The translations under genes were made by a program, and so were the position numbers. From an uncultured Rubrobacteraceae bacterium (GTDB lineage: Bacteria > Actinomycetota > Rubrobacteria > Rubrobacterales > Rubrobacteraceae), in contig CADCVD010000030.1 of NCBI GenBank assembly GCA_902806055.1, positions 1 to 42,899 of the forward strand: 42,899 bases of DNA, given 5' to 3'. The notes under the pieces were generated by a model. That model was not told the DNA's origin and ran no database searches. It was given only the letters and a program-made list of their open reading frames with translations. Positions 18,839-42,899 of this stretch are shown piece after piece (the first letter of the stretch is position 1; each line of letters starts with the position of its first letter).

Positions 18839-18842
18839 ACAG

Positions 18843-19226: not shown

Positions 19227-19747
19227 CCTTTGCGCACCTCCTTCCGGCCGTTACCAGAGTGCGGGGCGCCGGAGCGGACCTCGCGTTGTATCCACTCTAC
19301 GGCCTGCTTCAGCCGCTCCTCGCCCAAAACGCTCAGCTCCGTGTTCCACTCCTTCTCTACAGGCTCTAGTTCCACCACCGAGGTATCAGGAGGGAGAGCA
19401 CCGAAGTGCTGGGCGACGATGAGGAGGTTCTCCAGGCTTATGACCCCGGCTCCCGCCTCCAGGATGCGCTCTTGCACCAGGTCGAGGTCCAGTGTGTCAG
19501 AGATCCAGCCGTAAGTGGTTAGGGTCCCCGGCTCCCGCCCACGCTCGACGGCCCCAGCGAGGATGGCGCGCTCGAACCTCTTCCCCGGGCTCTCCTCGAA
19601 CCAGTCGAGGATGGCGAGGGGCCCGTAGCCGAAGTCCTCTACCCGGACCTCCTCCGGCCAGGTCATGCTCTGCAGCCGCTCCACAAGCTTCGGGCCGAAG
19701 GAGAGGTCGCCGAGGTATTGGTAGCCGACGCCGGCGATCAGAAGCAC
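19223..19747 (-). CDS. Second hydrogenase maturation protease-like protein (divergent M52)
   Basis: A 174-residue protein starting at GTG 19747, which overlaps the large-subunit stop (TAGTG). The N-terminus L-L-I-A-G-V-G-Y-Q-Y-L-G-D-L-S-F-G-P is clearly M52-like, and D-F-G-Y-G-P-L-A-I-L-D-W matches the second conserved region. However, the usual G-N after G-V-G is G-Y, and I do not see the normal metal histidine. It may be an inactive homologue acting as a chaperone, or a divergent active protease. Direct linkage to the large subunit gene suggests it works on that subunit. The frame is open a long way upstream, but only as an antisense-type shadow of the large-subunit gene. Confidence 0.8.
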   Translation of the reverse strand: MLLIAGVGYQYLGDLSFGPKLVERLQSMTWPEEVRVEDFGYGPLAILDWFEESPGKRFERAILAGAVERGREPGTLTTYGWISDTLDLDLVQERILEAGAGVISLENLLIVAQHFGALPPDTSVVELEPVEKEWNTELSVLGEERLKQAVEWIQREVRSGAPHSGNGRKEVRKG

Positions 19748-21636
19748 TAGTGCTCGGCCCCGCAGGCGCAGGTGTTGACCTCGCGCGTGACGACGCCCTC
19801 GTCTGTGTGGACGTGCGTAGTGCACGGCATGCAGGGGTCGAACGAGCGGATCGTCCGCTGGATATCTATCCCCTGGAAGCTCCCAGAGGGGCTGTTCTCC
19901 AGGATCGGGGTGTTCAGCACGGCCGTCTCGTACATCCCCGGCGTTCCCCAAGGGTCGCGCGGCGAGGCGTTGATAGTCGAGGGGGTGACGATCTGGTAGT
20001 TCGTGACCACCCCGTCCTCGATCATCATGTGGTGGCTGACGAAGCCGCGCCCGGCTCCCCAGAACCCAACCCCGAGCTGCTGGCCCTTCTGAGGGATCTT
20101 GAACGGGGTGCTTACCGCGTCCCGCCCTTGCTTCAAGAGCTCCATTCCCTGTCGCCAGACGTTCAGACCCACCAGCGCCGTGTAGGCCAGGCAGTAGGCC
20201 CGGCCCCGGTTGCGCTCGAAGGCGTTCCACACCTCGGGGACGTGCCACTCCAGCTCAAGCTCCGGCTCCTTGCCCTCGGGCAGGAGCATCTTGAGGCTGT
20301 GTCCTGTGGCCTCAATGTAGGGGTTCTCCGGCAGCAGCCGGGCCACGGCCGTGTTCCACATCCGGGCCGTGGCTTCGGCGTCCATCGGCATGCGATCCCA
20401 CCTCGGAGAGGTGGACCAGGTGTACTTCTCTCGCCAGTTCGGGGCCTGCGGCCGCGGCTTGGTCTCCTTGTTCCAGGGATGGTAGGGGCTCAAGGGAGCG
20501 CCCAGGGGATCCGTCTCGAACTTGTGGCCGTTCCAGCCCTCGTAGAAGGAGTGATCGATAAACTCCTCCATGCCGAGGTTGATGTTCTGGAGCTTCGTGG
20601 TTACAAGCTCCCCATTCACTATGACCCCCGGCGTGGCCCATCGCTTCTCGCCCCACTCGTTGCAGTTCTCGTAGGTCGCGTCGTAGGCCTCCGGGTCATC
20701 CCAGATTCCATTGTCTACAAGGTTCGCCGCCGTGCGCCCCACCTCCTTATAGCGAGGGTCGGCGTCGTAGAAGAAGTCGACGATATCATCGTAGATCGCC
20801 GCGGCCTTCTTGGAGTAGTCGAAAAACTGCTGCAGCCTCAGGTACATCTCGTTCATGGTCGAGATCGTCACCGTCGCGCTCACGCCCCCCGGCGCCAGGG
20901 TCTGCGGGTGGGGGAACTTGCCGCCTATTAGGACGTACGCCTCTTTGGAGACGCGGGTCATGTGCAGCGCCTCCAGGTACAGAGAGCCGGAGAGCGCGTT
21001 CATGTCGCGCATGATCCCGCCGAGGGTGGCGTAACCGTGGATGTTGGCGTGCGGCGCCTCGGTCCTCTCCGCCTGTTCCCACAGCTCGGGGTTGGTCTTG
21101 CGGATAACGTTCTCCGAGAAGTCCGGCCCCGTCAGCATAAACAGGTGCAACGGCAAGTCGAGAAGAAACTCGAAGACCGAGAGCAAGTTACGCAGAACGA
21201 TCCCCATCGGCGGCGGCTTTACGCCGATGGCCATCTCCGTGGCCAGCGACGAGGTCCCGGAGTGCGTGTTGCCGCACACTCCGCAGGCCCGGCTGGTAAT
21301 GTAGATTGCGTCGCGCGGGTCGCGGCCCATCATGATGATCTCGTACCCGCGAAACAGGGTAGCAACCGAGCGGCTCTCCAGGACCTTCCGCTCCTCTAAA
21401 TCCACGACGCTGTGGAACGCCAGAGCCCCGGCCACCCTCGTTATGGGGTCGAAGTTCTTCTGCTCGATGTGCCCGTTGCGGGCGAGAAGGTCCTCGATCT
21501 GATCCCGCGTCAGGGTACGTACCGCGCTACCGTTCAGGTCCGGGCTCCGCTCCGTGCTGTACGGGTCACGGACGTCCTCTCTCAGGTAGGCTCGACCCCC
21601 TTCGTCGAACTCTACCGGCAGATTCTTAAAGCACAC
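19747..21636 (-). CDS. hhyL: [NiFe]-hydrogenase large subunit (group 1h-like, HhyL)
   Basis: The 629-residue catalytic subunit of an uptake hydrogenase. The nickel ligands are C118/C121 in the L1 motif C-G-V-C-G-N-T-H and C602/C605 in the L2 motif D-P-C-M-P-C-T-T-H. Residues after His608 form a 21-residue tail that a maturation protease should remove; the tail holds C-A-C-G. Start is GTG at 21636 behind an excellent AGGAGGAG site. It pairs with the small subunit at 23197-24546, but five small genes lie between them. Overall length and motifs recall the high-affinity actinobacterial H2-scavenging enzymes. Exact HydDB group (1h or a sister group such as 1l) needs classification. Confidence 0.95.
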   Translation of the reverse strand: MCFKNLPVEFDEGGRAYLREDVRDPYSTERSPDLNGSAVRTLTRDQIEDLLARNGHIEQKNFDPITRVAGALAFHSVVDLEERKVLESRSVATLFRGYEIIMMGRDPRDAIYITSRACGVCGNTHSGTSSLATEMAIGVKPPPMGIVLRNLLSVFEFLLDLPLHLFMLTGPDFSENVIRKTNPELWEQAERTEAPHANIHGYATLGGIMRDMNALSGSLYLEALHMTRVSKEAYVLIGGKFPHPQTLAPGGVSATVTISTMNEMYLRLQQFFDYSKKAAAIYDDIVDFFYDADPRYKEVGRTAANLVDNGIWDDPEAYDATYENCNEWGEKRWATPGVIVNGELVTTKLQNINLGMEEFIDHSFYEGWNGHKFETDPLGAPLSPYHPWNKETKPRPQAPNWREKYTWSTSPRWDRMPMDAEATARMWNTAVARLLPENPYIEATGHSLKMLLPEGKEPELELEWHVPEVWNAFERNRGRAYCLAYTALVGLNVWRQGMELLKQGRDAVSTPFKIPQKGQQLGVGFWGAGRGFVSHHMMIEDGVVTNYQIVTPSTINASPRDPWGTPGMYETAVLNTPILENSPSGSFQGIDIQRTIRSFDPCMPCTTHVHTDEGVVTREVNTCACGAEH

Positions 21637-23196: not shown

Positions 23197-24546
23197 TTAC
23201 CTTCTCTCCCAGGTCTCGTCCACGTCCTCGCGAGCCCGCCCCTCGCTCTCGGCCGCGCCGCTGACGTCGTGGGGAGCCTGCATGTTTCGGGCCCGCGGCG
23301 GCATGTCCGTGTGCCACCTGTCCGAGTCGTCCCGCCCGGGCTTCTTCTTATCGCCGGAGAACTGCAGCTTCTGGTAGAAGAACTTGACCGCCTTCTTCAG
23401 GGGGCCGGGGTTCTCCGGCTCGCCCCATCCAGAAGGCACCTCCCCGCCGTAGAGCTCGTCCCAGCGGACCTCCCGGTTGGCGTTGTGGTTGCTCAGGGCC
23501 CGGAGACGCCGGATCCCGAACCCCACGGTACGCGAGGCGGCGCTTGAGACGGCGGAGCCAGGCGGGGCCTCATAGAACGGGGCGAACTTGTCCGGGAACC
23601 CCGGCATGGTGCATCCGATACACGGCCCGCCGGATGCCATGCAGCCGCCCATGTGAGACTGGAACCCTCGGGAGACGATGTTGCAGTTCACCACCGGACC
23701 CCAGCAGCCGATCTCTACCAGGCACTCCTTGTCGCCGTACTCCTTGGCGAAGACCCCCTCCTCGTAGTAACCGGCCCGCGTGCAGCCGCGGTGAACGGTC
23801 TCGGAGAACAGCCAGGCTGGACGCCCGAGCTCATCGAACTCCGGCAGCGGCCCCATACCCTGCAAGAAGAGCAGAATCGCCGCTACCGTCTCCGTAAAGT
23901 TGTCCCCTATAGGGGGGCAACCGGGGACGTTGATGACCGGCAGCCCCAGAGCGCTGCGGTAGTTCTTACCGAGGAAGTCCATCGTGCTCATCGATCCGGT
24001 CGGGTTCCCCGCCGCCGCCGGGATGCCGCCCCAGGTAGCGCAGGTGCCGATCGCGATGACCGCCGCCGCCCCCGGCGCCATCTGCGCCAGCCGGTCGGCG
24101 GTCGGCATAGGCTTCCCCGCCTCCCCGGTCTCTCCCTCGATGGCAGACAGACCCATAGCCGAGAAGTAGCCGTCGGTCTCGGCGGCAATGCGCTCGTCCG
24201 CGATCGAGCCCTCGTAAATGCACACGTATGGGGCGTCCAACTCGCCTCTGGCCGCCAGCTCGTAAGCGTGGGTGAAGTCCTCTCCCACCTCCATCGAGAG
24301 CACCGGGTGGTGCAGGATGACCTTTGGGAGCCCGGGTATGATCCCGGTCATCAGGTCCTCTACCTTGGGATTCGTGGCCCCGGTCGCGGCGATGCTGCAC
24401 CCGTCGCAACTCATCCCCGCCAGCCAGAAGGCGTGCACCACCTTGACCGGCCCCTCCGGGGCCCTGTTCCTCTTGGCCTCCGGCTCAAGGAGCCGCCCCG
24501 ACGCATCATCCACGATGCCAGTAGTAGGCGGTGCGTCAATCGTCAT
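23197..24546 (-). CDS. hhyS: [NiFe]-hydrogenase small subunit (group 1h-like, HhyS)
   Basis: A 449-residue electron-transfer subunit with three Fe-S sites. Proximal cluster cysteines are C47, C50, C169 and C210 (S-C-D-G-C-S, G-T-C-A-T-W-G-G, V-P-G-C-P-P). The distal and medial region has H252, C255, C281, C288, C302, C309 and C312. No twin-arginine signal is present, so the enzyme is expected to stay in the cytoplasm, as group 1h enzymes do. Unusual points are a hydrophilic N-terminal extension of about 30 residues, a C-terminal tail of roughly 60 charged residues, and Cys50 where I recall Asp in the described actinobacterial-type enzyme. The ATG follows the CooC-like gene by two bases. Confidence 0.95.
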   Translation of the reverse strand: MTIDAPPTTGIVDDASGRLLEPEAKRNRAPEGPVKVVHAFWLAGMSCDGCSIAATGATNPKVEDLMTGIIPGLPKVILHHPVLSMEVGEDFTHAYELAARGELDAPYVCIYEGSIADERIAAETDGYFSAMGLSAIEGETGEAGKPMPTADRLAQMAPGAAAVIAIGTCATWGGIPAAAGNPTGSMSTMDFLGKNYRSALGLPVINVPGCPPIGDNFTETVAAILLFLQGMGPLPEFDELGRPAWLFSETVHRGCTRAGYYEEGVFAKEYGDKECLVEIGCWGPVVNCNIVSRGFQSHMGGCMASGGPCIGCTMPGFPDKFAPFYEAPPGSAVSSAASRTVGFGIRRLRALSNHNANREVRWDELYGGEVPSGWGEPENPGPLKKAVKFFYQKLQFSGDKKKPGRDDSDRWHTDMPPRARNMQAPHDVSGAAESEGRAREDVDETWERR

Positions 24547-24548
24547 GT

Positions 24549-25370
24549 CTAGGCTCCTCTCCCGCTCCCGGAAGAACCGTTGCTCTCGGCCCCCGCCATC
24601 TCCCGCTCTAACAGATCGGCGATGTTCTCGACAGAGGCTACCGCCGGCGCCATGGGAGCGTAGTCCATCAACGCCTGAGCCTCCCTATCGGCTTCCTGAA
24701 TCGCCTCGTCCCACCAAACGATTCCGCCAACCTCTATCCCGTGATCCGCGCAGTAGGAGCGGATGATCTCTTCGTCTCTCTGGCTCCGCACCTTGTTGGC
24801 GACCGCCCAGACGTGCTCGATCCCGAGCTCCTGCGCGAGCGGCGCTATCCGCCCCACGGTCTCGAGCGACCGGAAGTAGGGCTCGGTCACGATCAGCATC
24901 CCTTCGACGTGCCGGACGGTGGCCCGGCTCATGTGCTCTATCGAGGCCTCCATGTCCGTGATGGTTACTTCTTCTCCGGCGTTACCCGTAGCCAGCTCAC
25001 CGAGCAGGCCGCGCACCCGAGCGTGCGCGCCGCACAGTCACCCGGCCCCGGCGTGGTCCACCCCCGTCATCACCATCAGGTTCACCCCGTCCGGCCCTTC
25101 GGTTGCGTACTCCGCCGTGATCTCTTCCACCGGGCGGGTCAAAACCAGAGATCGGCGTTCGCCTTCCTCCTTGACCTCCATGATCTCCTTGGGCACCCGG
25201 ACCAGCCTCTCCAACTGCTCCCGGCCCATCCCAAGCGCGACCCCGAGGTTCGGGTTGGGGTCCCCGTCTACCGCTGTCACCCGATGCCCCCGCCGCGCCA
25301 GAACCCGCGCCAACGTCGCCGAAATGGTCGTCTTACCCGAACCGCCCTTACCCGCAACAGCTATCTTCAT
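24549..25370 (-). CDS. CooC-like nickel-insertion ATPase containing selenocysteine (UGA at 25040-25038)
   Basis: Reading the in-frame UGA as selenocysteine gives one 273-residue P-loop ATPase of the CooC/MinD type. It has a deviant Walker A G-K-G-G-S-G-K-T-T at 7-15, V-D-G-D-P-N at 34-39, and the T-D-M-E-A-S-I-E-H-M-S-R Walker B region near 133. Sec111-Leu-Cys113 falls where Carboxydothermus CooC1 has its metal-binding, dimer-forming Cys112-x-Cys114. Both flanks continue the family sequence, so this is not two genes or a pseudogene. CooC proteins load nickel into CO dehydrogenase; here the partner is probably the hydrogenase, since no hypA or hypB is present. Start ATG has an AGGAG site; the next gene, hhyS, begins two bases after the stop. 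Confidence 0.85.
25010..25029 (-). other. Probable bacterial SECIS element in the CooC-like gene
   Basis: On the mRNA, CGCGCAC (25029-25023) pairs perfectly with GUGCGCG (25016-25010) around the six-base loop GCUCGG. The loop begins 16 nt after the UGA at 25040-25038 and its first base is G. Both points match the general rule for bacterial SECIS elements, which lie inside the coding region directly 3' of the UGA and bind SelB. An extra G-C closure below the stem is possible with one bulge. The assignment is by eye; no folding energy was computed. Confidence 0.75.
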
Positions 25371-25416: not shown

Positions 25417-25950
25417 TTAGCAGCACCCGCACCGACACTTCTCACTCTCCCCAACATCCTGCAAGAACCGGTCGGCCCGGACCACCGGCAGACCGTTCGC
25501 CGTTACCCCCTCGACTGCGGCGGTGACGCACCCGCAGAACTCCCCTTCCCCACGCTCCGCGCAGCGGCATGTACCCTGTTCCCCGGCCGTCGCGACGCGC
25601 TCTCGGTACTCCAGGAGACTCTCCCGGAAATCCCGCAGCTCCTCCAGCCTCCGCTCGGTCTCCTCTAGCTTTTGTTCCAAAAGTACGTCCAGATGTCGGA
25701 GGACCCCGCTCGGCATCCCCTCCTCGGCGATCTCCACCAGGTTCCGGATCTGATCTAGCGCCAACCCCATTAGCTTCGCCCGCCGGATGAACTCTATCTG
25801 CTCCAGCTCGCGCCAGCCGTAGATCCGGTACCCGGCATCCGTCCTTCCCGCAGGCGAGATCAAACCTATGTCCTCGTAGTAGCGTAAGGTCTTGGCCGGC
25901 ACTCCCACCAACCTCGCCACCTCACCTATCTTTAGAGCTGTTTCACCCAT
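25417..25950 (-). CDS. MerR-family metal-responsive regulator, head of hydrogenase operon
   Basis: A 177-residue MerR-family activator. The N-terminal helix-turn-helix is typical (K-I-G-E-V-A-R-L-V-G-V-P-A-K-T-L-R-Y-Y-E), followed by I-R-R-A-K-L-M-G-L, a long dimerisation helix, and a C-terminal part with nine cysteines including C-R-C-A, C-G-C and a final C-R-C-G-C-C. Such endings suggest binding of a thiophilic or transition metal; nickel would fit the operon but is not shown. ATG at 25950 has AAAGGTG six bases upstream; a GTG at 25959 lies within that site and is less likely. The gene sits behind its own MerR-type promoter and 46 bases ahead of the CooC-like gene. Confidence 0.88.
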   Translation of the reverse strand: MGETALKIGEVARLVGVPAKTLRYYEDIGLISPAGRTDAGYRIYGWRELEQIEFIRRAKLMGLALDQIRNLVEIAEEGMPSGVLRHLDVLLEQKLEETERRLEELRDFRESLLEYRERVATAGEQGTCRCAERGEGEFCGCVTAAVEGVTANGLPVVRADRFLQDVGESEKCRCGCC

Positions 25951-25980
25951 AAAGATCACCTTTCCCGTAACACACGGTTC

Positions 25981-26011: not shown

Positions 26012-26228
26012 GATAGACGTCAAAAGTTCAGGAAATCTAGCCTCCTCTTACCTTAACGATTCGCTCGTTTCACTCTCCGTCGAGAGATACTGTCGAGCCG
26101 GAGGAGGGCCATAAGCGATGCTCCTCTCGCGGGGGCGCGTTCTCCTTACGTCGAGCAATGTTCGTGGCCGTTTGGTGAGAAAGGGCATGCAAAGTAGAAT
26201 CTCTCCAGAGAGCGCGGAAGGAGAAAGT

Positions 26229-26876
26229 ATGGCAGAGCAGAGAGGCGGAACCGGCATAGATTCTACGACCATAAAAGATATCGTGCGGTTTCACGGCCAC
26301 ATGTGTCCGGGGCTTGCTATGGGCATCCGAGCCGCCGAGGTGGCTCTAAGCGAGGTAGGACCGCATTCCTCTGACGAAGAGGTCGTCACGATCACAGAGA
26401 CGGACATGTGCGGGGTGGATGCGATCCAGTACCTCACCGGCTGCACTTTCGGCAAGGGTAACCTCATCCACTTAGACTACGGCAAGAACGCCTACACCTT
26501 CATCCGGCGCTCGGACAGCAAGGCGGTCCGGGTATCCACTCGCCCCGGAGCATTCGACCGGAGCCCGGAACACAACGAACTCTCCGCCAAAGTGCGCAAC
26601 GACAGCGCCACCGACGAGGAGCGGAGCCGCTACAAGGAGCTGCGCGCGAACCGCACCGAGGCGATCCTGCAAGCTTCCGTAGGCGAGCTTTACGCCGTGG
26701 AGAAGCTAGAGAGCGCGGATATACCGCCGATAGCCCGTATCCACGACTCTGTTGCCTGCGCCGGGTGCGGCGAGCTCACCATGGAGACTCGCGTAAAGCA
26801 GCTGGAGGGTAGGAGGCTCTGTCCAGCCTGTTTCGAGGCCGCTCTCTCCCGCCAAGGCAGCGTCGAGAGCAACTGA
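26229..26876 (+). CDS. FmdE-family protein with C-terminal zinc ribbon
   Basis: A 215-residue protein of the FmdE family (named after a formylmethanofuran dehydrogenase subunit, though bacterial members have other, mostly unknown roles). The family signature I-V-R-F-H-G-H-M-C-P-G-L-A-M-G is at about 18-32; T-D-M-C-G-V-D-A-I-Q and G-C-T-F-G-K-G-N follow. The C-terminus has C-A-G-C and C-P-A-C, forming a probable zinc ribbon. ATG at 26229 is chosen for its strong AAGGAG site; the frame extends to 26118 without one. It is divergent from merR and first of the plus-strand block. Metal handling is a guess from its cysteine and histidine content and position. Confidence 0.85.
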   Translation: MAEQRGGTGIDSTTIKDIVRFHGHMCPGLAMGIRAAEVALSEVGPHSSDEEVVTITETDMCGVDAIQYLTGCTFGKGNLIHLDYGKNAYTFIRRSDSKAVRVSTRPGAFDRSPEHNELSAKVRNDSATDEERSRYKELRANRTEAILQASVGELYAVEKLESADIPPIARIHDSVACAGCGELTMETRVKQLEGRRLCPACFEAALSRQGSVESN

Positions 26877-26912: not shown

Positions 26913-27857
26913 TTGAGCCGCGAAGACGACCTTTCGTTTCTAGCCCCGCCCGGTGAGGTAGCGGACTGGCGGATGGTCGCCACCTTCGATGCCGCAGCCG
27001 AGGCAGGACTCTTCGAGCAGCTTCCAGCCACTCCCGCGCAAGTAGCTAGCCGCCTCGGCCTCGACGAACGAGCCGTACGTATATTGCTCGGCGCCCTCTC
27101 CGTCTGGGGAGTAGTCGAGAAGCATGCCGGCAGGTACTCGATGCATCCGGACTGGTCCTGCGACCAAGGAGAGGCGGCGACGTTGCGCCACCACGCTCGC
27201 GTCCTCCGGACGTGGAGCACGCAACTCGGTGACCGTCTGCGGGGAACCCCTCCCTCTCCCTCCAAAATTCCCCCGGAGCGCCGCCGGCTCTGGCTCGAAG
27301 CGCTGGCCGCGAGCGCGCGCGAGCAGGCTCCGCTCGTCGTCGAGACCTGCCTCAAGCGTTTTCCGAACGTCCGCCGCGTCCTGGACCTCGGAGGAGGTCA
27401 CGGCGAACACGCCCGCGCCTTCGCCCGGCGGGGCCTCAGCGTGATGCTCCAGGATACAGAGCCGACCGTCGAGTTACTCAAAGAGAGCGAACTACCTAGC
27501 TCTGGAGTGGAACTGTTCGCGGGAGATTTCTTCGAGGTTCTGCCCAATGCGCAGTTCGACCTAGTCCTCTGCGCCGGCGTCACGCATACCTACGACGGCG
27601 AGCGTAACCGCCTACTCTACCGCCGAATCGCCTCGATCCTCGCCTCCGGTGGGGGCCTGGCTATCATCACCTTCCTGCCCGAGCAGGACCCGAGGGCTTC
27701 GATCTTCGCGGTACAGATGTTGGCGGTATCCGCGGGCGGCGACGCACACAAAGAGATTAAATACCGCGAGTGGCTAGAAGCCGAGGGCTACCGGGCGCCC
27801 GAGATTCGGCATCTCAGTAACACCGCCAACTTCCTCTTGCTCACCTCCCGCCGTTGA
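26913..27857 (+). CDS. SAM-dependent methyltransferase, O-methyltransferase-like
   Basis: A 314-residue protein with an N-terminal winged-helix dimerisation domain (about 15-85: A-A-E-A-G-L-F-E-Q-L, L-G-L-D-E-R-A-V-R-I-L-L) and a Rossmann methyltransferase domain with motif I V-L-D-L-G-G-G-H-G-E-H at about 156-166 and a G-D-F-F-E-V-L motif further on. This layout is that of COMT-like small-molecule methyltransferases. Start is TTG at 26913, 36 bases after fmdE and in the same frame. The substrate is unknown, and the link to hydrogenase or transporter is positional only. Confidence 0.82.
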   Translation: MSREDDLSFLAPPGEVADWRMVATFDAAAEAGLFEQLPATPAQVASRLGLDERAVRILLGALSVWGVVEKHAGRYSMHPDWSCDQGEAATLRHHARVLRTWSTQLGDRLRGTPPSPSKIPPERRRLWLEALAASAREQAPLVVETCLKRFPNVRRVLDLGGGHGEHARAFARRGLSVMLQDTEPTVELLKESELPSSGVELFAGDFFEVLPNAQFDLVLCAGVTHTYDGERNRLLYRRIASILASGGGLAIITFLPEQDPRASIFAVQMLAVSAGGDAHKEIKYREWLEAEGYRAPEIRHLSNTANFLLLTSRR

Positions 27858-27935: not shown

Positions 27936-29591
27936 ATGGAAGGTGGAGGAGAGAATAGAAAGGGTTTAGGAGTTGTGGTTATCCATAAAGAGTCGAGACG
28001 GTCTTTGCGTCCCTTGCTGGTAGGTGTTTTGGGGCTTCTGATGCTGATCGTGTTGAGCCCGGCCGCGGGCGGCGCGCAGGAGGAATCCGAGCAACTGGAG
28101 AAGCTTACCATCGCGACCGAAGCCGACAAGGGCAATCTAACCCCTTACAGCTTCAGGCCCCCTCCGGGCCTTCACGCCGAGCTCACGAGCCTCGTCCACG
28201 ACACGCTCTTCTTGGACCCCTATACCGAAGAGCCAATCCCGTGGCTCGCGACGGAGGCCTCTGCGAGCTCGGACGCTAAAACCTGGACCGTGACGCTTCG
28301 CGATGACGTCACCTGGCACGATGGCGAGGAGTTCACGGCCGATGACGTCGCCTTTACCTACGAATACTACAAGGAGGGTCCCTCCAACCGCTACTCGCAT
28401 CACGCACATGAGTATCCGGTTATAGAGTCTGTTGAGACATTAGACGCGAGCACGGTGGAGTTCACCTGCGCCGATCCCTGTCCCACCCTGCAGCTCATTA
28501 CCCTGGCCGACCTTCCGATCCTGCCGGAGCATATCTGGGAGAACGTCGAGGACCCGCAGACGTACACGGAGTTGCCGGTGGGCACCGGACCGTACAAGCT
28601 CGTAGAGTACGTAGAGGATCAATCCTACCGTCTCGAGGCCAACGAGGATTACTTCCTCGGTCCACCGGCGGTACAGGAGATAGAGATGCCGATCGTCACG
28701 GATCCTTCGAGCATGTTCCTCGCCCTGGAGACCGGGCAGGTAGATACCGTAACACGCAACATCCCTCCCGAGATAGAGGAGCGTCTCGCCGAGACCGAAG
28801 ACATCGAGATGGTCGAAGGAGATCGGTTTTCGTCCGTCTTTCTCAGGTTCAACTCTGAAACTCCACCGCTCGACCAGCAAGAATTTCGAAGGGCTTTTGA
28901 TATGGCTATAGACCGGCAGGCCCTCGTGGACACGGTCTTGTTGGGTAGCGGGACACCGGGAAGTCCCTCGTTCCTGCACCCGGATTCCAGATGGTACGAG
29001 TCCCAAGAGGCAAGCTTCGATCCGGAGCAGGCCAACACGATTCTAGACGAAGCCGGAATTACGGATTCCGACGAGGACGGGGTTCGGGAGATCGACGGGG
29101 AGCCGGTCAACCTCTCGGTCCTCGTCCCGGCCAACGACCCTCAGCAGATTCGCACGGCCGAGCTGGTCGCTCAGCAGCTCGAAGAGGTAGGCGTTGGTCT
29201 AGAGGTTGAGTCACTAGACCCGGGTACGCTGAGCCAGAGGCAGAACTCGCAGGACTTCGAACTCTCCACCTTCCAGGGCGTGCCTCATCTGCTCGGGGAC
29301 CCCACCCAACTGATGGAGTCGCTAACATCTTTGCTGTTCTACGCTAACCCCGATTACGAAGAGCTAAAATCCGAGTGGTCTGAGGCTACCACTATCGAGG
29401 AGCAGAGTGAGAAGCTCTCCGAGATCCAAACACTCTTCTCCGAAGACCCGCCGGCTTTCACGCTCTACTACCCCGACACAAACTACGCCTATAACACGAG
29501 CGTCTACGACGGTTGGATACCGGTTAAAGGACACGGCATTCACCATAAGTGGTCACTTATACCGCAAGCAGCAGAGTTGTTGGATGAATAA
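27936..29591 (+). CDS. ABC transporter substrate-binding protein, family 5 (Opp/Dpp/Nik type)
   Basis: A 551-residue secreted binding protein. A Sec signal peptide spans about residues 18-48 (basic R-R-S-L-R, hydrophobic core, then S-P-A-A-G-G-A before the mature part); there is no lipobox cysteine, so membrane attachment is not by a standard lipoprotein anchor. The family 5 signatures W-T-V-T-L-R-D-D-V-T-W-H-D-G, A-D-D-V-A-F-T-Y and G-T-G-P-Y-K-L are present. The ligand could be a peptide, nickel or another small molecule; sequence alone does not tell. Start is uncertain: ATG at 27936 has no clear ribosome site, and GTG at 27975 is an alternative. It begins a five-gene importer operon. Confidence 0.88.
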   Translation: MEGGGENRKGLGVVVIHKESRRSLRPLLVGVLGLLMLIVLSPAAGGAQEESEQLEKLTIATEADKGNLTPYSFRPPPGLHAELTSLVHDTLFLDPYTEEPIPWLATEASASSDAKTWTVTLRDDVTWHDGEEFTADDVAFTYEYYKEGPSNRYSHHAHEYPVIESVETLDASTVEFTCADPCPTLQLITLADLPILPEHIWENVEDPQTYTELPVGTGPYKLVEYVEDQSYRLEANEDYFLGPPAVQEIEMPIVTDPSSMFLALETGQVDTVTRNIPPEIEERLAETEDIEMVEGDRFSSVFLRFNSETPPLDQQEFRRAFDMAIDRQALVDTVLLGSGTPGSPSFLHPDSRWYESQEASFDPEQANTILDEAGITDSDEDGVREIDGEPVNLSVLVPANDPQQIRTAELVAQQLEEVGVGLEVESLDPGTLSQRQNSQDFELSTFQGVPHLLGDPTQLMESLTSLLFYANPDYEELKSEWSEATTIEEQSEKLSEIQTLFSEDPPAFTLYYPDTNYAYNTSVYDGWIPVKGHGIHHKWSLIPQAAELLDE

Positions 29592-29743: not shown

Positions 29744-30748
29744 TTGCCGCTCCCTTCCGAAGCCGGATGGAGGCGCATCGTCGGACGGATAGCCCAGTAC
29801 GCTCTCGTCGTCCTGATCGCGCTATCGCTCAACTTCGCCATACCCAGGCTGGCACCAGGAAGTCCGATCGACTATCTGGTCCCGAGCGAACAAGTCACCA
29901 CCGTCACCCCCGAGCAACGAGAGCGGATACTGGCCCAGTTCGGGCTTGAGAGGCCGCTCGCCGAGCAGTATTGGAGTTATATAGCCGGGATCTTGCAGGG
30001 CGACCTTGGCGTCTCGGCCCAGCAAGGCCGACCCGTAGTAGATATGCTCCTGGAGAGGCTGCCCTGGACCCTCATATTGGTGGGTGGGGCGATCACGCTC
30101 TCCCTCATAGTCGGGGCCGGCGCCGGGTTTCTCGCGGCCGCTCGGCGGGGAGGCCGGATGGAGGTTGGAGGACTCGCCTTCTTCATGTTCCTCGACTCGA
30201 TGCCTCCGTTCTGGATCGGGATGCTCCTCCTCGTACTGTTCTCCGGGTACCTAAAGATTCTGCCGGTCTTCGGAGCCCTCCCGCTAACGGGGGCGGCAGG
30301 CGGTTTCGGCCTCACCCTTGAGGTCGCCGAGCGTCTTGTGCTCCCCCTGCTGACCCTGACCCTGGTGAGGGCTGGCTGGCTCTTCCTGGTGGCGAGATCC
30401 TCGCTCGCGGGCGAGCTCTCCGAGGACTACATACTCATGGCCGAGGCAAAAGGCCTCTCCCGGCGCAAGGTGGTGCTTGGGCATGGGGTGAGAAACGCCC
30501 TCCTCCCCCTCGTGACCGCCGTGGCGGTAGAGGCGGGGACAGTGGTAGGAGGAGCGACGGTGGTCGAGACCGTCTTCTCGTACCCTGGCTTGGGGCGTCT
30601 GGTCTATGAGAGCGTCCTGAGCCGTGACTACCCCGTGCTGCAGGGGGCGTTCCTGCTCCTGGCGGTAGGGGTTATCGCGGCCAACCTCCTCGCCGACCTG
30701 CTCTACCCGATAATAGACCCCCGGACGCGGACGGAGGGTGCCCGATGA
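29744..30748 (+). CDS. ABC transporter permease (DppB/NikB-like)
   Basis: A 334-residue inner-membrane permease with about six hydrophobic helices. The periplasmic loop after the first helix contains L-A-P-G-S-P and the L-G-L-E-R-P-like F-G-L-E-R-P-L-A-E-Q-Y segment common to DppB-type subunits. The ATPase-contact EAA loop is A-E-A-K-G-L-S-R-R-K-V-V-L-G-H-G. It starts with TTG right after the preceding small frame and overlaps the next permease as ATGA. It forms the channel with the protein at 30745-31629. Confidence 0.9.
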   Translation: MPLPSEAGWRRIVGRIAQYALVVLIALSLNFAIPRLAPGSPIDYLVPSEQVTTVTPEQRERILAQFGLERPLAEQYWSYIAGILQGDLGVSAQQGRPVVDMLLERLPWTLILVGGAITLSLIVGAGAGFLAAARRGGRMEVGGLAFFMFLDSMPPFWIGMLLLVLFSGYLKILPVFGALPLTGAAGGFGLTLEVAERLVLPLLTLTLVRAGWLFLVARSSLAGELSEDYILMAEAKGLSRRKVVLGHGVRNALLPLVTAVAVEAGTVVGGATVVETVFSYPGLGRLVYESVLSRDYPVLQGAFLLLAVGVIAANLLADLLYPIIDPRTRTEGAR

Positions 30749-31629
30749 GCGGGGCTCAGTTGGGGCGCATAGGAGCGGCGACCCTGGCGATTTTCGTGAT
30801 CGCCGCGATCTTTGCCCCGGTGCTCGCTCCCTACGACCCTACGGTACGCACCGCCGCGCCCTTCGCGGCCCCATCACTGGCTCACCCGTTAGGCGCTAAC
30901 GACGTAGGCCAGGACATCTTGAGCGAGCTCCTCTTTGCCAGCAGGATTTCGCTCACGGTCGGCATCGCCACCGCCTGCCTGGCGACGGTTCTGGGAACGA
31001 CTATCGGGGTTGTCAGCGGATACCTCAGAGGTCCCGTAGATAGCGTGCTGATGCGAGGGGTGGACGTGATCCTCTCTCTACCTTTCTTGCCGCTCATGAT
31101 CGTGCTGGCGGCGTTTCTCGGGCAGAACACCACCAACCTGATACTGGTTATAGGTTTGCTGATCTGGGCTCGCCCGGCCCGTCTGCTACGTTCTCAGGTG
31201 CTTTCGGTGCGAGAGAGCGGGCACGTACAGGCAGCTCGGACGATGGGCGCCACACACGGTTACATAATGGTGCGTCATATACTGCCCAGGATCACCCCTT
31301 TGATCGCGGCTCAGTTCGTCCGTGCCGCTAACGTCTCTATAATGCTCGAGGCCTCTCTGGCCTTTCTCGGTCTCAGCGACCCGTTCCAGAAGAGTTGGGG
31401 CGCCATTCTGTTTTACGCCAACGCCCGCTCGGCCTTTCTCACCGACGCGTGGCTCTGGTGGGTGCTGCCGCCGGGGCTGTGCATAGCAGCGGTAGTAGTC
31501 AGCTTCGCTTTTCTGGGCTACGCAATTGAGGAGCGCGTAGATCCCCGCCTACGCTCCAACCTGCCGGCGAGCGAGACCCTGAAAGATGCCGAGACGCCGA
31601 CGCCCGTCGGAGGAGGCGCTCTCCGGTGA
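30745..31629 (+). CDS. ABC transporter permease (DppC/NikC-like)
   Basis: A 294-residue second permease. It has the N-terminal helix followed by A-H-P-L-G-A-N-D-V-G-Q-D, the DppC-type motif (H-P-L-G-T-D-x-x-G-R-D), five further helices, and an EAA loop A-A-R-T-M-G-A-T-H-G-Y-I-M-V-R-H. The C-terminus ends R-V-D-P-R-L-R as usual. Four-base overlaps with both neighbours show tight coupling. It completes the heterodimeric channel. Confidence 0.9.
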   Translation: MSGAQLGRIGAATLAIFVIAAIFAPVLAPYDPTVRTAAPFAAPSLAHPLGANDVGQDILSELLFASRISLTVGIATACLATVLGTTIGVVSGYLRGPVDSVLMRGVDVILSLPFLPLMIVLAAFLGQNTTNLILVIGLLIWARPARLLRSQVLSVRESGHVQAARTMGATHGYIMVRHILPRITPLIAAQFVRAANVSIMLEASLAFLGLSDPFQKSWGAILFYANARSAFLTDAWLWWVLPPGLCIAAVVVSFAFLGYAIEERVDPRLRSNLPASETLKDAETPTPVGGGALR

Positions 31630-32612
31630 GCGCGCTCCTCGAGGTTCGCGGTTTGAGTACCGTATACGATGCTCCAGAGGGCCCGATCCGGGCCGTAGAC
31701 GGCGTGGATCTTACCGTAGGTCGTGGAGAGATCCTTGGCGTAGTCGGCGAGTCCGGCTCCGGCAAGACCACGCTGGTGATGTCCTTAATGCGCCTCGTAA
31801 AGCCTCCCGGCAAGATACTCAAGGGCGGCGAGATGCTGCTAGACGGCGAAGATCTCTTCGGTCTCCCCCGCTCGAAGATGCCGGCGCGGCGGGGCCGAGA
31901 CCTCGCCCTGATACCCCAGAGCGCCATGCACGCCCTGAACCCGGTGATCCCGGTCGACAAGCAGGTCGCAGAAGCGATCACCGTGCATAGAAAAGTTAAC
32001 AGCAAGGACGCCCTACTCGCCGCCCGCGAGAGGTTGGTGGAGGTCGGCATCCCGGCCGAACGCCACTCCGCCTACCCGCACGAGCTAAGCGGAGGAATGC
32101 GGCAACGGTGCGTCATAGCGATGGCCGTCGCCAACGAGCCTAAGCTGGTCATCGCCGACGAGCCGGTCTCCGGGCTTGACGTCGTCGTGCAGGCTCGCAT
32201 CCTGCGTCTCATCGCCGAGCTAAAAGAGAGCCGAGGCCTCTCCATGATCCTGGTCTCCCACGACCTCTCGACGGTGGCCAGAGTCTGCGACCGCATCGCT
32301 GTTATGTACGCCGGAAGGATCGTCGAGACGGGTGAGGCCCGCACCCTCTTCAAGAGCCCCCTGCATCCGTATACCAGGGCTCTGGTAGCAGCGATCCCCC
32401 AGGTGCAAGGTCCCAAACAAGCCCTGAGAGCCATCCCGGGCGATCCTCCGGACCTGAGCCAACTGCCGCCCGGCTGCGATTTCCAGCCGCGCTGCCCTTC
32501 GGCCTTCGCCGACTGCGAGACAGTGGACCCGTCGCTGGAGGAGGTGGAGCCCGGCAGGAAGGCAGCCTGTCTGCTCTATCATAAGAATGAACGAAGACAA
32601 CTTGACGAGTAG
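31626..32612 (+). CDS. ABC transporter ATP-binding protein (DppD/NikD-like)
   Basis: A 328-residue ATPase. Walker A is G-E-S-G-S-G-K-T-T near residues 41-49, the signature motif is L-S-G-G-M-R-Q-R, and Walker B is L-V-I-A-D-E-P. The C-terminal extension P-R-C-P-S-A-F-A-D-C with further C-x-x-x-x-x cysteines is the segment found in peptide-type ATPases, where it can carry a 4Fe-4S cluster. The start GTG at 31626 overlaps the permease stop by four bases, and the end overlaps the next ATPase gene by 26. Confidence 0.92.
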   Translation: MSALLEVRGLSTVYDAPEGPIRAVDGVDLTVGRGEILGVVGESGSGKTTLVMSLMRLVKPPGKILKGGEMLLDGEDLFGLPRSKMPARRGRDLALIPQSAMHALNPVIPVDKQVAEAITVHRKVNSKDALLAARERLVEVGIPAERHSAYPHELSGGMRQRCVIAMAVANEPKLVIADEPVSGLDVVVQARILRLIAELKESRGLSMILVSHDLSTVARVCDRIAVMYAGRIVETGEARTLFKSPLHPYTRALVAAIPQVQGPKQALRAIPGDPPDLSQLPPGCDFQPRCPSAFADCETVDPSLEEVEPGRKAACLLYHKNERRQLDE

Positions 32613-33582
32613 TATGGGCTCCGGCCCTCCATTGCTAGAGGTAAGCGATCTGAACGTCCGTTTCGGTGCTCGCGGAAGATTCGGAGAGATAGCAGCCGTG
32701 CGCGGCTTGAGCTTTAGCATTGCTCCGGGTGAGATCCTCGGCCTCATCGGCGAGAGTGGATCGGGCAAGACCACCGTAGCGCGCGCCATAATGGGACTGG
32801 TCCCGTCTGCTACAGGCAGTATCCGCTTCGAGGGCAGGGAGATGCTCGGGCTACCGGAGCGGGAGTTGCGAAAGGTGCGGCGCCGCCTCCACTTCATCTT
32901 CCAGGATCCCTACGACTCCCTCCATCCGGGTATGCGGACACGCGAGATCGTCGAGGAGGCGATGAAGATCCACGGCTTCGGAGACCGTGCTTATAGAGAG
33001 ACGGCAGTCTCGGCGGCGCTGGAGGAGGTTGGCCTCACCCCAAGCTCCCGTTTCATCAGACGCTATCCGCACCAACTCTCCGGGGGGCAGCGCCAGCGGG
33101 TCGCGATCGCACGGGCGATGGTGCTCGACCCAGCTTTGGTGCTGGCCGACGAGCCTACCTCGATGCTGGATCTCTCCCTACGCTCCGGGATACTGAAGAT
33201 TCTCGAGAAGCACCGGGATACGCACGGCACCGGCTACCTGTTCATCACACATGACTTGGCCCTGGCACGCTACCTCTGCGACCGCGTCGCGGTGATGTTC
33301 GGCGGCAGTCTGGTCGAGATGGGTCCTACTGAGAGCGTAGTCACAAACCCTCTTCACCCCTACTCACAGCTACTCCTGCAGGCGGTAGAGGAGCTCGCAC
33401 CGACCCAGGCAGCTCAGCCGGCGCGCGGCCCGGATCTCATCTCCCCCGACGACAACGCCATAGCAAAAGCAAGACATGCTACCATCGAACCTGAACTACA
33501 AGAGGTGACCCCGGGCCACTACGTCGCCCGTCCGCCGTCCGGACAATCCGAGCCGGACGAGGCAACAGAGAAGGAGGAGTAG
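32587..33582 (+). CDS. ABC transporter ATP-binding protein (DppF/NikE-like)
   Basis: A 331-residue second ATPase with Walker [10 protein letters not shown], signature L-S-G-G-Q-R-Q-R and Walker [13 protein letters not shown]. Unlike its partner it lacks the C-terminal cysteine-rich segment and ends in a hydrophilic tail. The ATG at 32587 gives a 26-base overlap with the preceding gene; the first recognisable domain residues begin about 18 codons later. The strong site AAGGAGGAG for the next gene lies at its very end, linking the transporter to the selenoprotein downstream. Confidence 0.92.
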
Positions 33583-33583
33583 A

Positions 33584-33955
33584 GTGCAACGCAAGAAGTT
33601 GGTCTTTTTCGCCGGTCTCGATCCGGCCATCAGTACACGCCCGGCTTTTATGGCCTACCACTTCGCCTCGGTGGCGCATAAGTCCGGCCTGGAGGCTGAG
33701 GTAAGGCTCGCCGGAGACGCGGTGGAGATCCTCAAAGACGGAGGAGTTCCCGACCCCGGCTATAACAAGCGTTTGCTCAACTACATGAACGAAGCTGTAG
33801 AGAGCGGCCTCTTCGTCTCGGTCTGACCGCGCTGCATGGACGCCCGTGCGGTGTCCGACGATGATATCCACCGGTGGGGAGCGGTTCGGCGGAACCTGGC
33901 CGACATCCTCACCGAGGTAGCCGAAGGCAGCTCCGAGCTGATCTATCTAGGCTAG
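33584..33955 (+). CDS. DsrE-like selenoprotein (UGA at 33824-33826)
   Basis: Reading UGA as selenocysteine gives a 123-residue DsrE/YchN-fold protein rather than an 80-residue fragment. The N-terminus K-K-L-V-F-F-A-G-L-D, a conserved loop and L-L-N-Y-M-N-E-A-V lead to the active-site region S-V-U81-P-R-C84-M-D-A-R, where DsrE relatives carry C-P-x-C. The frame then continues D-D-D-I-H-R-W-G-A-V-R-R-N-L to a TAG, as the family does. DsrE-type proteins bind sulfur or other chalcogens on a cysteine. GTG at 33584 has an ideal AAGGAGGAG site. It directly follows the ABC transporter and precedes a glutaredoxin, suggesting a shared redox or chalcogen task. Confidence 0.85.
33838..33856 (+). other. 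Probable bacterial SECIS element in the DsrE-like gene
   Basis: GGACGCC (33838-33844) pairs with GGUGUCC (33850-33856) as seven base pairs including one G-U, around a CGUGC loop. The loop starts 19 nt after the UGA and has G in its second position, matching the general bacterial SECIS pattern. It was found by eye and not folded computationally. Confidence 0.72.
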
Positions 33956-34016: not shown

Positions 34017-34247
34017 ATGCCCAAACCGGTGCACCTCTATACTACGGAGGGTTGCCATTACAGCGAGGCCGCCCGCGACGACCTGGAATGGCGCGGGGTG
34101 GACTTCGTGGAGTACGACGTCGAGCGGGACCGCGAAGCCTACGAGCGGATGCTAGAGCTTACCGGCGGCAACCGGACGGTCCCTGTAATCGTCGAGGAGG
34201 GCAAGCCAGCCCAGGTAGGCTGGATGGGGCGAGGATGCTATATCTAG
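34017..34247 (+). CDS. Uxx-star family glutaredoxin-like protein, cysteine form
   Basis: A 76-residue thioredoxin-fold protein. The glutaredoxin site is C13-H-Y-S16, a monothiol-like CxxS; N-R-T-V-P-V-I-V supplies the conserved cis-proline. The C-terminus ends G-W-M-G-R-G-C74-Y-I, that is a cysteine three residues before the stop. A named family of glutaredoxin-like (seleno)proteins is defined by Sec or Cys in exactly this place (U-x-x-stop); this is the cysteine version. The ATG follows GGAGGAGACGAC, 61 bases after the DsrE-like gene. It is a plausible redox partner for the neighbouring selenoprotein. It ends only four bases from the convergent hemB end, with no visible terminator. Confidence 0.85.
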   Translation: MPKPVHLYTTEGCHYSEAARDDLEWRGVDFVEYDVERDREAYERMLELTGGNRTVPVIVEEGKPAQVGWMGRGCYI

Positions 34248-40089: not shown

Positions 40090-40261
40090 ACGAACCCCCG
40101 TTTGTAGTTGTCAGTTTGCTTCAGGCGCTACCCACGCTCGCGACAGCCACGGTCCAAGCTCTCTCGGAGCCCCACATTATCTACAGCGTCCGGTAGCGTG
40201 CCCGTGTGTTATTCCCCGAGACCGGCCTCGTCTTTCACGTGGCTACTGGCAACTATCACAG

Positions 40262-40350
40262 CGGAATGCGGGGGAATCGAACCGCCACGGACGTCTTACG
40301 CCCGCAAACCGGTTTTGAAGACCGGCCGGGCCACCAGGCCCACGCATTCC
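40262..40350 (-). tRNA. selC: tRNA-Sec (anticodon UCA)
   Basis: Read on the minus strand, an 8-bp acceptor GGAATGCG/CGCATTCC closes the molecule. The D arm is GGGCC-TGGT-GGCCC, and the anticodon stem CCGGT/ACCGG encloses CTTCAAA with anticodon UCA at 40318-40316. A long variable arm (CGGGCGT/ACGTCCG, 40304-40288, three-base loop) and a TTCGATT T-loop complete the fold. The T stem has one C-C mismatch as I draw it, and the acceptor and T stems total 12 rather than 13 bp. Discriminator G at 40262; CCA is not encoded. UGA-reading anticodon, long variable arm and linkage to selA-selB make the call firm. Confidence 0.93.
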
Positions 40351-40378
40351 AGTGTACGCAAGGATTCTAATATATCGA

Positions 40379-42217
40379 CTAGCGATAGCGACGGGTGAGA
40401 ACGCGGGCGTCGCCTACCCTCTTGGTGACGCCGGCGGTATCAGCGTACTCCAGCCAGACCTGGGCGTACTTACGACTCGTGCCCATAAGGTCGCGGAAGG
40501 CTGCAAGCGAGATCTCCCCATCCTCCCGTGCCACGGTCGTTATCTCTTCCAGAATATTATTCGCCACCTCGCCTGACGCGAAGAGACCGTCGGCTAGCTG
40601 TACCGCCTCACCACGTTTGACCAGGAGACGAGCGGCGGGCGTCGCCTTCATCGCAGGCGGCTCCACCCCGGCCCGATGCAACGCTTCCAACAGCCCTTCA
40701 GCCTCGCTCTTCAGTTCGGGCGGCACCTCATCAGCGTCTGGAAGGCTAATCCCTGCGTCGCTGACTCGGACCTCTCCATCCGCCATCTCTTTGAGCAGCG
40801 CGTCCGCCAGCCGGGAGTCTAGGCCCGTGGCAGTCCGGGCCTCGGCCACGGAGATCTCCGGGCTCTCGGGCCTCTCTCCCGCCCGTTTCTTGAGCGATTT
40901 GAGGAGCCGTTTTCGCGCCGACTTTATCTCTCCGGCGGGGACGTAGAGGTCGCCGACCTTCGCGATCTCCGGGTTCTTCGCGACTGCCGTCAAGATCTCG
41001 GAGGGTCCGGCAGGCACTACGAGGGAGATCTCTCCGGCGCTCATGCCGCTCCCCGGAGCTCTGGCGAGGGCGAGCGGCACGACGCGCCCCCAGTCGCCGC
41101 CCTCCAGGGCTTCAAGCCAGCCGGGCTCGGGCCGCCGACCGGTCGGGGTGGGATCTAGGACCGTGCCGCCACCTATGGTGATTTGTGGGCTGGAGGAGCG
41201 CAGCACGAAACGGTCGCCCGGCAGCGCGACGAGACCCTCCTGAAGCATGAGCCGGGCAAGAGAGCTCTCGCCCGGGGAGAGCTCTCTCCGGTCTAAAAGA
41301 CGCACTCGAGCGTTGGTCGCCCGCGTGCCGTGATAAAGCCGGAGCCGTGCACCGTGCCTGAGGGGCGATGCACCCGCGAGGAGCTGTAGGCGCGCGTCGA
41401 GAGCGCGGGTCGGGGGCACAGGACTCGATAGGAGGACTTCACCCGGCTCGAGGTCCGCGGCCTCTATCCCGACGAGGTCCAGGGCCGTGCGCGCGCCGGC
41501 TCGCGCAACCTCGGCGGGACGGCCGTGGTTCTGGACGCCGCGCACCCGCGGACGGCGTCCGGCAGCGGTGTAGAGCGTGTCGCCGGGCCGGATCTCTCCG
41601 CTCCACAGGGTACCGGTCGCAACCAGTCCGATCCCCCTTAGCACGAAAGCCCGGTCTACCGGCAGGCGCGTCAGAGTCCCCGCCCGGCCGTTTTCGGAGC
41701 TACCGGCCAGCTCGTCGAGTGCTAGAAGTAGTTCCTCCAACCCCTCGCCCGTCACGCCGCTGACCGGGAGGATCGGAGCCTCCAAACCGGCCGATTCTAG
41801 AAGCTCGGCGGCGTCTAACTCCGCCAGCTCGACCATCTCTTCGTCCACCATATCTACCTTCGTGAGCGCCACTACGCCGCTTCCAACCCCCAATACGCGC
41901 AGAACGTCGAGGTGCTCCCGCGTCTGAGGCATGACCCCGTCGTCTGCGGCGACGACGAGCAGGAAGGCGTCCACCCCGGTCGCGCCCGCAACCATGTTTT
42001 TTACGAAGCGTTCGTGGCCCGGTACGTCCACGAGGCTCGCCCGGCGTCCGCTGGGCAACTCAAGCTCCGCGTAGCCCGGCACGATAGAGATGCCGCGCCG
42101 GTGCTCCTCTTCGAGCCGGTCGGTGTCCGTGCCGGTCATCCGGCGCACGAGCGTGGTCTTGCCGTGGTCGACGTGTCCGGCGGTCCCGATGGTGAGGGCT
42201 ATAGGCCGGTCATCCAT
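40379..42217 (-). CDS. selB: Selenocysteine-specific elongation factor SelB
   Basis: A 612-residue translational GTPase that carries Sec-tRNA to UGA codons by binding the SECIS hairpin. It has G1 [13 protein letters not shown]3 D-V-P-G-H-E-R-F and G4 T-K-V-D, then EF-Tu-like domains, then C-terminal winged helices (about 380-612) that bind RNA. ATG at 42217 overlaps the selA end by eight bases and starts just before the G domain; the longer frame to 42397 lies inside selA. The tRNA-Sec gene follows after 28 bases. Confidence 0.96.
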
Positions 42218-42899
42218 GCAGAACCTCCAAAGCTCCAAGTATCGCGTCTTCATCTCCATCCAGGAGCGTGCGGACGTCGAGCCAGAGCCTACTCTCGCCC
42301 ACGCGGCCCACCACGGGCGGGTCTCCCGAGCGCAGGCTCTCGGCCAGAATGTCGACGTCCTCGCTCTCCAGACGCACGGCGTAGGAGGGAATCTCATAGG
42401 TCGGCAGCGTCCCGCCGCCGCTCCGGGCGACCGAAGGGGCTACGTCCACTGCGAAACTCGGGACGACACGAGAGATTTCCGCGGCCAGGCGTTCGGCCTT
42501 GTGTTTCATCTCTTCGGCCGAGGCGTGGAGCATCTTGAGGGTCGGTAGCTCTTCGGGTGCGACGCCTTCGAGGTACGCGGCAAGGGTCGCTTCGAGGGCA
42601 GCGAGGCAGAGCTTGTCGGCGCGTAGGGCTCGTGCCAGAGGGTGGCGGCGCATCGTGGAGATCCACCGAGACTCCCCAACGGCGATGCCGGCCTGGGGTC
42701 CCCCGAGCAGCTTGTCTCCGGAGAAGATGGTGAGCGCCGCGCCCTCCCGGACCGCCGCCTGGACCTTCGGCTCGTCGCTGATCGGCAACAACGCCCCGCT
42801 GCCCACGTCGGCCACGACCGGCGGCCTCAGGGTAGAGAGCTCGGCGACCCCGACCGACTCGGTGAAGCCCTGTACCTCGAAGTTGGACGGGTGGACCCA
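42210..42899 (-). CDS. selA: L-seryl-tRNA(Sec) selenium transferase SelA (partial, cut by right edge)
   Basis: The C-terminal 229 residues of a PLP enzyme that converts seryl-tRNA-Sec to selenocysteinyl-tRNA using selenophosphate. Visible blocks are V-H-P-S-N-F-E-V-Q-G-F-T-E at the window edge, V-A-D-V-G-S-G-A-L-L, and the PLP lysine in F-S-G-D-K-L-L-G-G-P-Q-A-G. M-R-R-H-P-L-A-R-A-L-R-A-D-K follows. The frame is open to the last base, so the start lies outside. selD, which supplies selenophosphate, is not in the window. Confidence 0.95.
   Translation of the reverse strand, partial: WVHPSNFEVQGFTESVGVAELSTLRPPVVADVGSGALLPISDEPKVQAAVREGAALTIFSGDKLLGGPQAGIAVGESRWISTMRRHPLARALRADKLCLAALEATLAAYLEGVAPEELPTLKMLHASAEEMKHKAERLAAEISRVVPSFAVDVAPSVARSGGGTLPTYEIPSYAVRLESEDVDILAESLRSGDPPVVGRVGESRLWLDVRTLLDGDEDAILGALEVLHG

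Follow-up and report, generated by a model that had tools for sequence, protein, structure and literature searches.

DsrE proteins are sulfur carriers or uncharacterised, and selenocysteine (Sec) has been described mainly at enzyme active sites and in redox motifs. We know of no DsrE protein that binds nickel, and a literature search for DsrE together with nickel found nothing relevant. A DsrE-like selenoprotein family with a U-x-x-C motif is known (PMC1088965; WP_014524487.1 in PMC9312934 and PMC13188914); it is present in a 2026 inventory of 119 prokaryotic selenoprotein families and subfamilies, from which CooC is absent (PMC13188914). In CooC, Cys112 and Cys114 bind metal at the dimer interface, zinc in the crystal, with nickel competing (Kd 0.4 uM; PMC6006190), and the overall architecture is common to CooC and HypB (PMC9164220). 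Group 1l hydrogenases are carried by many desert-soil Actinobacteria (PMC7677003).

The window, the whole stretch of 42,899 nucleotides analysed here from an uncultured Rubrobacteraceae bacterium, contains on its plus strand (33584-33955) a previously overlooked gene which, as read from the DNA, encodes a genuine DsrE-fold selenoprotein of 123 amino acids (DsrE-Sec), with an in-frame UGA (33824-33826) read as Sec81 of a U-P-R-C motif. Read directly, the frame opens with GTG and comprises 80 codons, the TGA as codon 81, 42 sense codons and a TAG, giving MQRKKLVFF...LFVSV-U-PRC-MDARAV...ELIYLG with the TGA as Sec. A single base separates the GTG from the stop of the preceding ATPase gene, an AGGAGG lies about 10 nt upstream of it, and the start position is shared with distant relatives (MTRRKLIFF). 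Pfam DsrE (PF02635) matches residues 7-107, spanning the UGA, with 39.8 bits against a cut-off of 22.7, and the Acidimicrobiia member L034 scores slightly under it (21.3). In the family alignment U81 and C84 occupy the C-x-x-C columns of Cys-type DsrE proteins, the U81 column being the first Cys of C-G-T-C. The AlphaFold2 model from a ten-sequence alignment (pLDDT 89.6) matches YchN, DsrE, TusBCD and other DsrE/DsrF proteins (Foldseek, VIA-align), with Z of 11-13 to DsrE, TusC and YchN and below 5 in the following rows; U81 is placed immediately after a strand. A PDB sequence search with the DsrE-Sec profile gave nothing useful, the fold search being informative instead, and NCBIfam gave no family match. 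The protein consists of the DsrE domain only, without the N-terminal SirA-like domain of YedF (TIGR03527). Both the DsrE assignment and the position of Sec81 at the conserved Cys of the family, as proposed by the sequence-only reading, are borne out. Since DsrE-like U-x-x-C selenoproteins form a known family, the window protein is one more DsrE-like member by Pfam, fold and motif, of a kind already known.

DsrE-Sec was searched in 396 genomes of the phylum, and a genome collection was scanned as well. The 396-genome search identified the gene with a single in-frame TGA in G000, G327, G130, G216 and G236, together with a copy in the draft MAG G394 that has lost one base ahead of the UGA; the scan added L032-L036, each with the UGA. 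The codon is kept in 11/11 genomes, from Rubrobacteraceae, other Actinobacteria and Acidimicrobiia, and no homologue terminating at residue 80 or carrying Cys instead was found among them. Sec/Cys alternation, which the sequence-only reading had proposed to check, holds between DsrE subfamilies but not within this one, where Cys-form orthologues were sought and none was found, Cys being limited to more distant DsrE proteins. An alignment of the ten intact sequences has no internal gaps, and their identity to the window protein is 43-94%. In Rubrobacteraceae most changes, before and after the UGA alike, are third-position ones, and for four of these sequences dN is 0.02-0.10 vs dS of 0.45-0.77 (NG86) in both parts; by these rates the gene is under purifying selection on both sides. 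The motif is U-P-x-C in seven of the ten and U-P-Y/H-S in the three Acidimicrobiia (L034-L036), where Sec is kept and the second Cys is Ser, an arrangement easier to reconcile with one reactive residue or ligand than with an obligatory selenenylsulfide. A second type of DsrE selenoprotein, with the motif U-G-G-C, was observed at L018/L028 (G317) and L047 (G236:C3).

The SECIS candidate (33838-33856, plus strand) is the hairpin GGACGCC-CGTGC-GGTGTCC, with a 7-bp stem, the loop CGTGC and 18 nt from UGA to loop. Over 11 sequences pairing in the stem is 96%, two of its 7 pairs having changed on both sides, and in a control with the stem partner slid it was 31-57%. For the window hairpin taken singly z = -1.0, and that one sequence folds better into an alternative 11-bp hairpin; single-sequence folding is uninformative as proof, and the SECIS support comes from covariation. 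The hairpin is as the sequence-only reading had described it, and neither of the findings which that reading had named as fatal to it, homologues ending at residue 80 or a lack of SECIS support, was encountered.

The genes for Sec insertion are in the same window (40261-42815, minus strand): tRNA-Sec (40261-40350), SelB (40379-42397, with the domain from residue 69 of the ORF) and the C-terminal part of SelA (42210-42815). Genome-wide recoding of UGA to another residue is ruled out, since neighbouring genes end in TGA and the window carries tRNA-Sec, selB and selA, and an assembly artefact is ruled out by the agreement of ten other assemblies. A search of plasmids gave no match. It is hardly credible that translation simply stops at the UGA, or that the gene has decayed, with a product of 80 residues only. 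The TGA at the end of neighbouring genes (e.g. those for the FmdE and methyltransferase proteins), the deletion in the G394 copy and the z of the window hairpin would agree with a stop, but protein-level conservation beyond the UGA reaches down to 43% identity across three lineages, dN being far below dS, no homologue found terminates there, and the last strand of the modelled fold is encoded after it. Conservation and dN/dS rule out a plain stop or pseudogene.

DsrE-Sec follows five plus-strand genes of an ABC importer: a substrate-binding protein of the SBP_bac_5 type (27936-29591), permeases of the NikB/DppB (29744-30748) and NikC/DppC (30745-31629) types and ATPases of the OppD/NikD (31626-32612) and OppF/NikE (32587-33582) types. 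The best NCBIfam model of the binding protein is NikA, and all five proteins are under the cut-offs of the NikABCDE equivalogs (NikA 167 vs 393, NikB 199 vs 447, NikC 175 vs 358, NikD 215 vs 319 and NikE 201 vs 333). The solved relatives of the binding protein are mixed, with peptide binders among them. No NCBIfam model of the Sao (selenoprotein-associated) operons matched DsrE-Sec, the binding protein or the permeases in the full lists, nor either ATPase among the matches listed. Downstream lies a glutaredoxin-like protein of the Uxx-star family in Cys form (C-H-Y-S; 34017-34247, plus strand; NF041212 above cut-off); another Cys form, C-Q-Y-S, was observed at L049 (2301-2516) near hydrogenase or importer genes. 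Upstream, on the same strand, are Pfam-assigned genes for an FmdE-domain protein with a C4 zinc finger (26118-26876) and a methyltransferase-domain protein (26913-27857). The FmdE-domain protein adjoins the importer likewise in G130, G327 and G111.

By tblastn of the window genes, the order binding protein, two permeases, two ATPases and DsrE-Sec is shared by G000, G327, G130, G394, G236 and L032-L035. L036, whose locus begins inside the operon, has the permeases, ATPases and DsrE-Sec, and the G216 contig starts just before DsrE-Sec. On every contig that extends to the upstream genes, DsrE-Sec stands directly after the second ATPase gene, so that the proposed coupling to an ABC importer is found as a tight and conserved linkage. 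In the window this operon diverges from a minus-strand [NiFe]-hydrogenase cluster, a neighbourhood also found in G130 and, within the limits of its contig, in G327, where the sequence ends in the CooC-type selenoprotein gene and the hydrogenase itself is not seen. In G394 the importer has HypE upstream, in L034 and L035 HypF is divergent from it, and in G111 and G081 (L089, L094) an importer relative adjoins hydrogenase genes, differently ordered. The importer is present in G026 without hydrogenase and without DsrE-Sec; G076 has hydrogenase and the CooC-type selenoprotein, with no DsrE-Sec and no importer beside them. In this small and related sample, then, DsrE-Sec accompanies importer plus hydrogenase.

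The hydrogenase cluster, all on the minus strand, comprises a MerR-family regulator with a Cys-rich tail (25417-25959), a CooC-type ATPase (24549-25370), the small (23197-24546) and large (19747-21636) hydrogenase subunits, maturation protease 2 (19223-20248, with the domain in the C-terminal half of the ORF and the start probably further in), a NifU/Rieske-like protein (17921-18895), maturation protease 1 (17421-17924), HypF (15097-17547), a HypC-like chaperone below cut-off (14495-14818), HypD (13384-14511) and HypE (12311-13864, with the domain from residue 185 of the ORF). The large subunit carries DPCMPC without Sec, which rules out a NiFeSe hydrogenase in the window. Elsewhere in the phylum, large subunits with one in-frame TGA were observed at G020:C62:16472-17941 and G005:C7:10501-11925, and these are possibly NiFeSe hydrogenases.

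The CooC-type ATPase (273 amino acids, deviant Walker A GKGGSGKTT) is broken only by a TGA at codon 111 (25040-25038), in GVDHAGAG-U-L-C-GAHARVRGLL, which places Sec111 at the CooC metal motif. By phmmer it matches CooC of Carboxydothermus hydrogenoformans (3kje) with E 1.6e-30, and U111/C113 fall on C112/C114 (C-Y-C). No NCBIfam family is above cut-off among the matches listed. The U-x-C form was identified in nine fully read Rubrobacteraceae, with the TGA in a tenth partial copy, and also in G017, G081, G111, G114 and G200; C-x-C in G140, G205, G236, G269, G289 and G381; U-x-U in L034-L036, G081 and G114; and C-x-U in G211 and G236. As aligned, Sec and Cys alternate at each of the two metal-site positions. 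L032 and L033 come from genomes that likewise have CooC-type genes whose first position is Sec, with L108 reading U-T-G, so that its second position is not Cys. In the Acidimicrobiia a pair of CooC-type genes follows DsrE-Sec (L034 10389-11878, L035 10429-11918 and L036 5420-6909), one without the motif and the other with two Sec (U-P-U-C). Seleno-CooC occurs in 10/10 DsrE-Sec genomes where a CooC-type gene was found, a count inflated by shared ancestry; G394 (79% complete) gave no CooC match. No report of a seleno-CooC was found in the literature, and apparently it is an undescribed selenoprotein family.

Ten genomes were searched for the usual nickel-insertion proteins. HypA and HypB were each above cut-off only in G216 and G394, and neither was in G000, G130, G076, G141, G236, G114, G081 or G111; these absences come from draft genomes, which can hide genes, G076 being 99% complete in 3 contigs. 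Ni-CODH (TIGR01702) had no match in any of the ten, no enzyme of this kind being found for CooC to serve. With no HypA/HypB above cut-off, the CooC-type ATPases are the sole recognised nickel-insertion candidates in those eight genomes.

The sequence-only reading had taken Sec81 for a chalcogen carrier or peroxidatic residue working with the importer, which is unsupported as stated, no sulfur-relay partner being recognised among the operon proteins examined. It had not mentioned that a [NiFe]-hydrogenase cluster lies next to importer and DsrE-Sec and includes another selenoprotein, with Sec at a nickel-binding motif, and this points to nickel handling. We give an even chance to the reading that Sec81 works in cytosolic nickel handling for [NiFe]-hydrogenase maturation, which gene linkage supports and in which Sec81 would bind nickel. 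Nickel or one of its chelates is probably, perhaps very probably, what the importer carries in for the adjacent hydrogenase, to judge by the linkage, and nickel or a nickel complex would be released into the cytosol. DsrE-Sec may then take up nickel, the selenolate of Sec81 either acting as a soft ligand or releasing the metal from a complex with thiolate. Next in line would be the CooC-type ATPase, which likewise has Sec at its metal site (U-x-C) and would insert the nickel into the large subunit in place of HypA/HypB. This reading is favoured because DsrE-Sec keeps its place after the second ATPase in an operon order shared by ten genomes; because Hyd/Hyp genes adjoin the importer in the window, G130, G394, L034 and L035, and its relative in another order in G111 and G081; because G026, bearing the importer without hydrogenase, is also without DsrE-Sec; because Sec occurs at the CooC metal pair, in four Cys/Sec forms, and seleno-CooC in all ten DsrE-Sec genomes with a CooC match; because HypA/HypB were not found above cut-off in eight genomes, nor Ni-CODH in any of the ten; and because the Acidimicrobiia lose the second Cys and keep Sec. 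Counting against it are the importer scores below all Nik cut-offs, the peptide binders among the solved relatives of the binding protein, the sulfur-carrier role of those DsrE proteins that are characterised, none of which is known to us to bind nickel, the draft state of the genomes in which HypA/HypB were not found, and G216, which holds HypAB together with the CooC-type selenoprotein. The co-occurrence counts of DsrE-Sec, importer and seleno-CooC are inflated by genome relatedness.

Two other functions have to be weighed against nickel handling, and the chalcogen carrier or peroxidatic residue of the sequence-only reading falls under these. DsrE-Sec may be a thiol/selenol redox helper, Sec81-x-x-Cys84 reducing a disulfide or oxidised thiolate, for example in the imported chelate, in CooC or among the cysteines of the hydrogenase; the Uxx-star protein would be its partner. 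A protein of that family comes after DsrE-Sec in the window, and in G076 one is found close to the hydrogenase cluster; U-P-x-C predominates among the intact sequences, and redox proteins make up most known selenoproteins (PMC13188914); the Ser of the Acidimicrobiia, with Sec kept, speaks against this function, which is rather unlikely. For a chalcogen carrier, with Sec81 holding a persulfide or perselenide as in DsrE/TusD and giving sulfur or selenium to a partner while the importer supplies a sulfur or selenium compound, one conserved chalcogen residue is enough, as in the U-P-x-S members, and the DsrE fold itself is in favour. However, its linkage is to hydrogenase and nickel-insertion genes, and neither TusA and rhodanese nor the DsrEFH/TusBCD relay partners (DsrF/DsrH, TusB/TusC) were recognised among the operon proteins examined (Pfam/NCBIfam); a chalcogen carrier is improbable.

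Tentatively, and at somewhat under an even chance, Actinobacteria with these hydrogenases would have a selenium-based nickel relay, in which importer-linked DsrE-Sec and seleno-CooC (U-x-C, C-x-U or U-x-U) replace HypA/HypB, and maturation needs selenium for a hydrogenase without Sec. The findings suggest that bacteria of this soil-type actinobacterial group handle nickel with selenium chemistry. One metal-handling neighbourhood has two proteins with Sec, and in one of the two it lies exactly at a known metal-ligand pair, where all four Cys/Sec combinations occur. If this is true, the 20-year-old DsrE-like selenoprotein family would gain a function and the list of selenoprotein families seleno-CooC, the nickel supply of hydrogenases without HypA/HypB would be explained, and H2 oxidation by such Actinobacteria would be tied to selenium supply.

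Compared with known systems, the window group shares with the DsrE-like U-x-x-C family the DsrE Pfam domain, Sec in U-x-x-C and a bacterial SECIS after the UGA, and differs in following a Nik/Opp-type importer, in its link to [NiFe] hydrogenase and in U-P-x-S in Acidimicrobiia, WP_014524487.1 being compared without its gene context. The CooC-type protein is, like CooC of C. hydrogenoformans (3kje-3kji), a MinD-type ATPase with a two-residue metal motif, but it has Sec in this motif and belongs to a [NiFe]-hydrogenase cluster in a genome without Ni-CODH match. With NikABCDE the importer shares five genes of the SBP_5 type, whereas its sixth gene is a DsrE selenoprotein. In comparison with HypA/HypB systems the expected task, nickel insertion, is the same and HypCDEF and protease are present, whereas a Sec-bearing CooC-type ATPase stands in the cluster instead of HypA and HypB. 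The Sao operons likewise link selenoproteins to an ABC transporter, but in them the transporter subunits are themselves selenoproteins (PMC13188914). The DsrE-like family itself is known; what is new here is its place in an importer operon, the U-P-x-S variant, its link to hydrogenase and the seleno-CooC that accompanies it.
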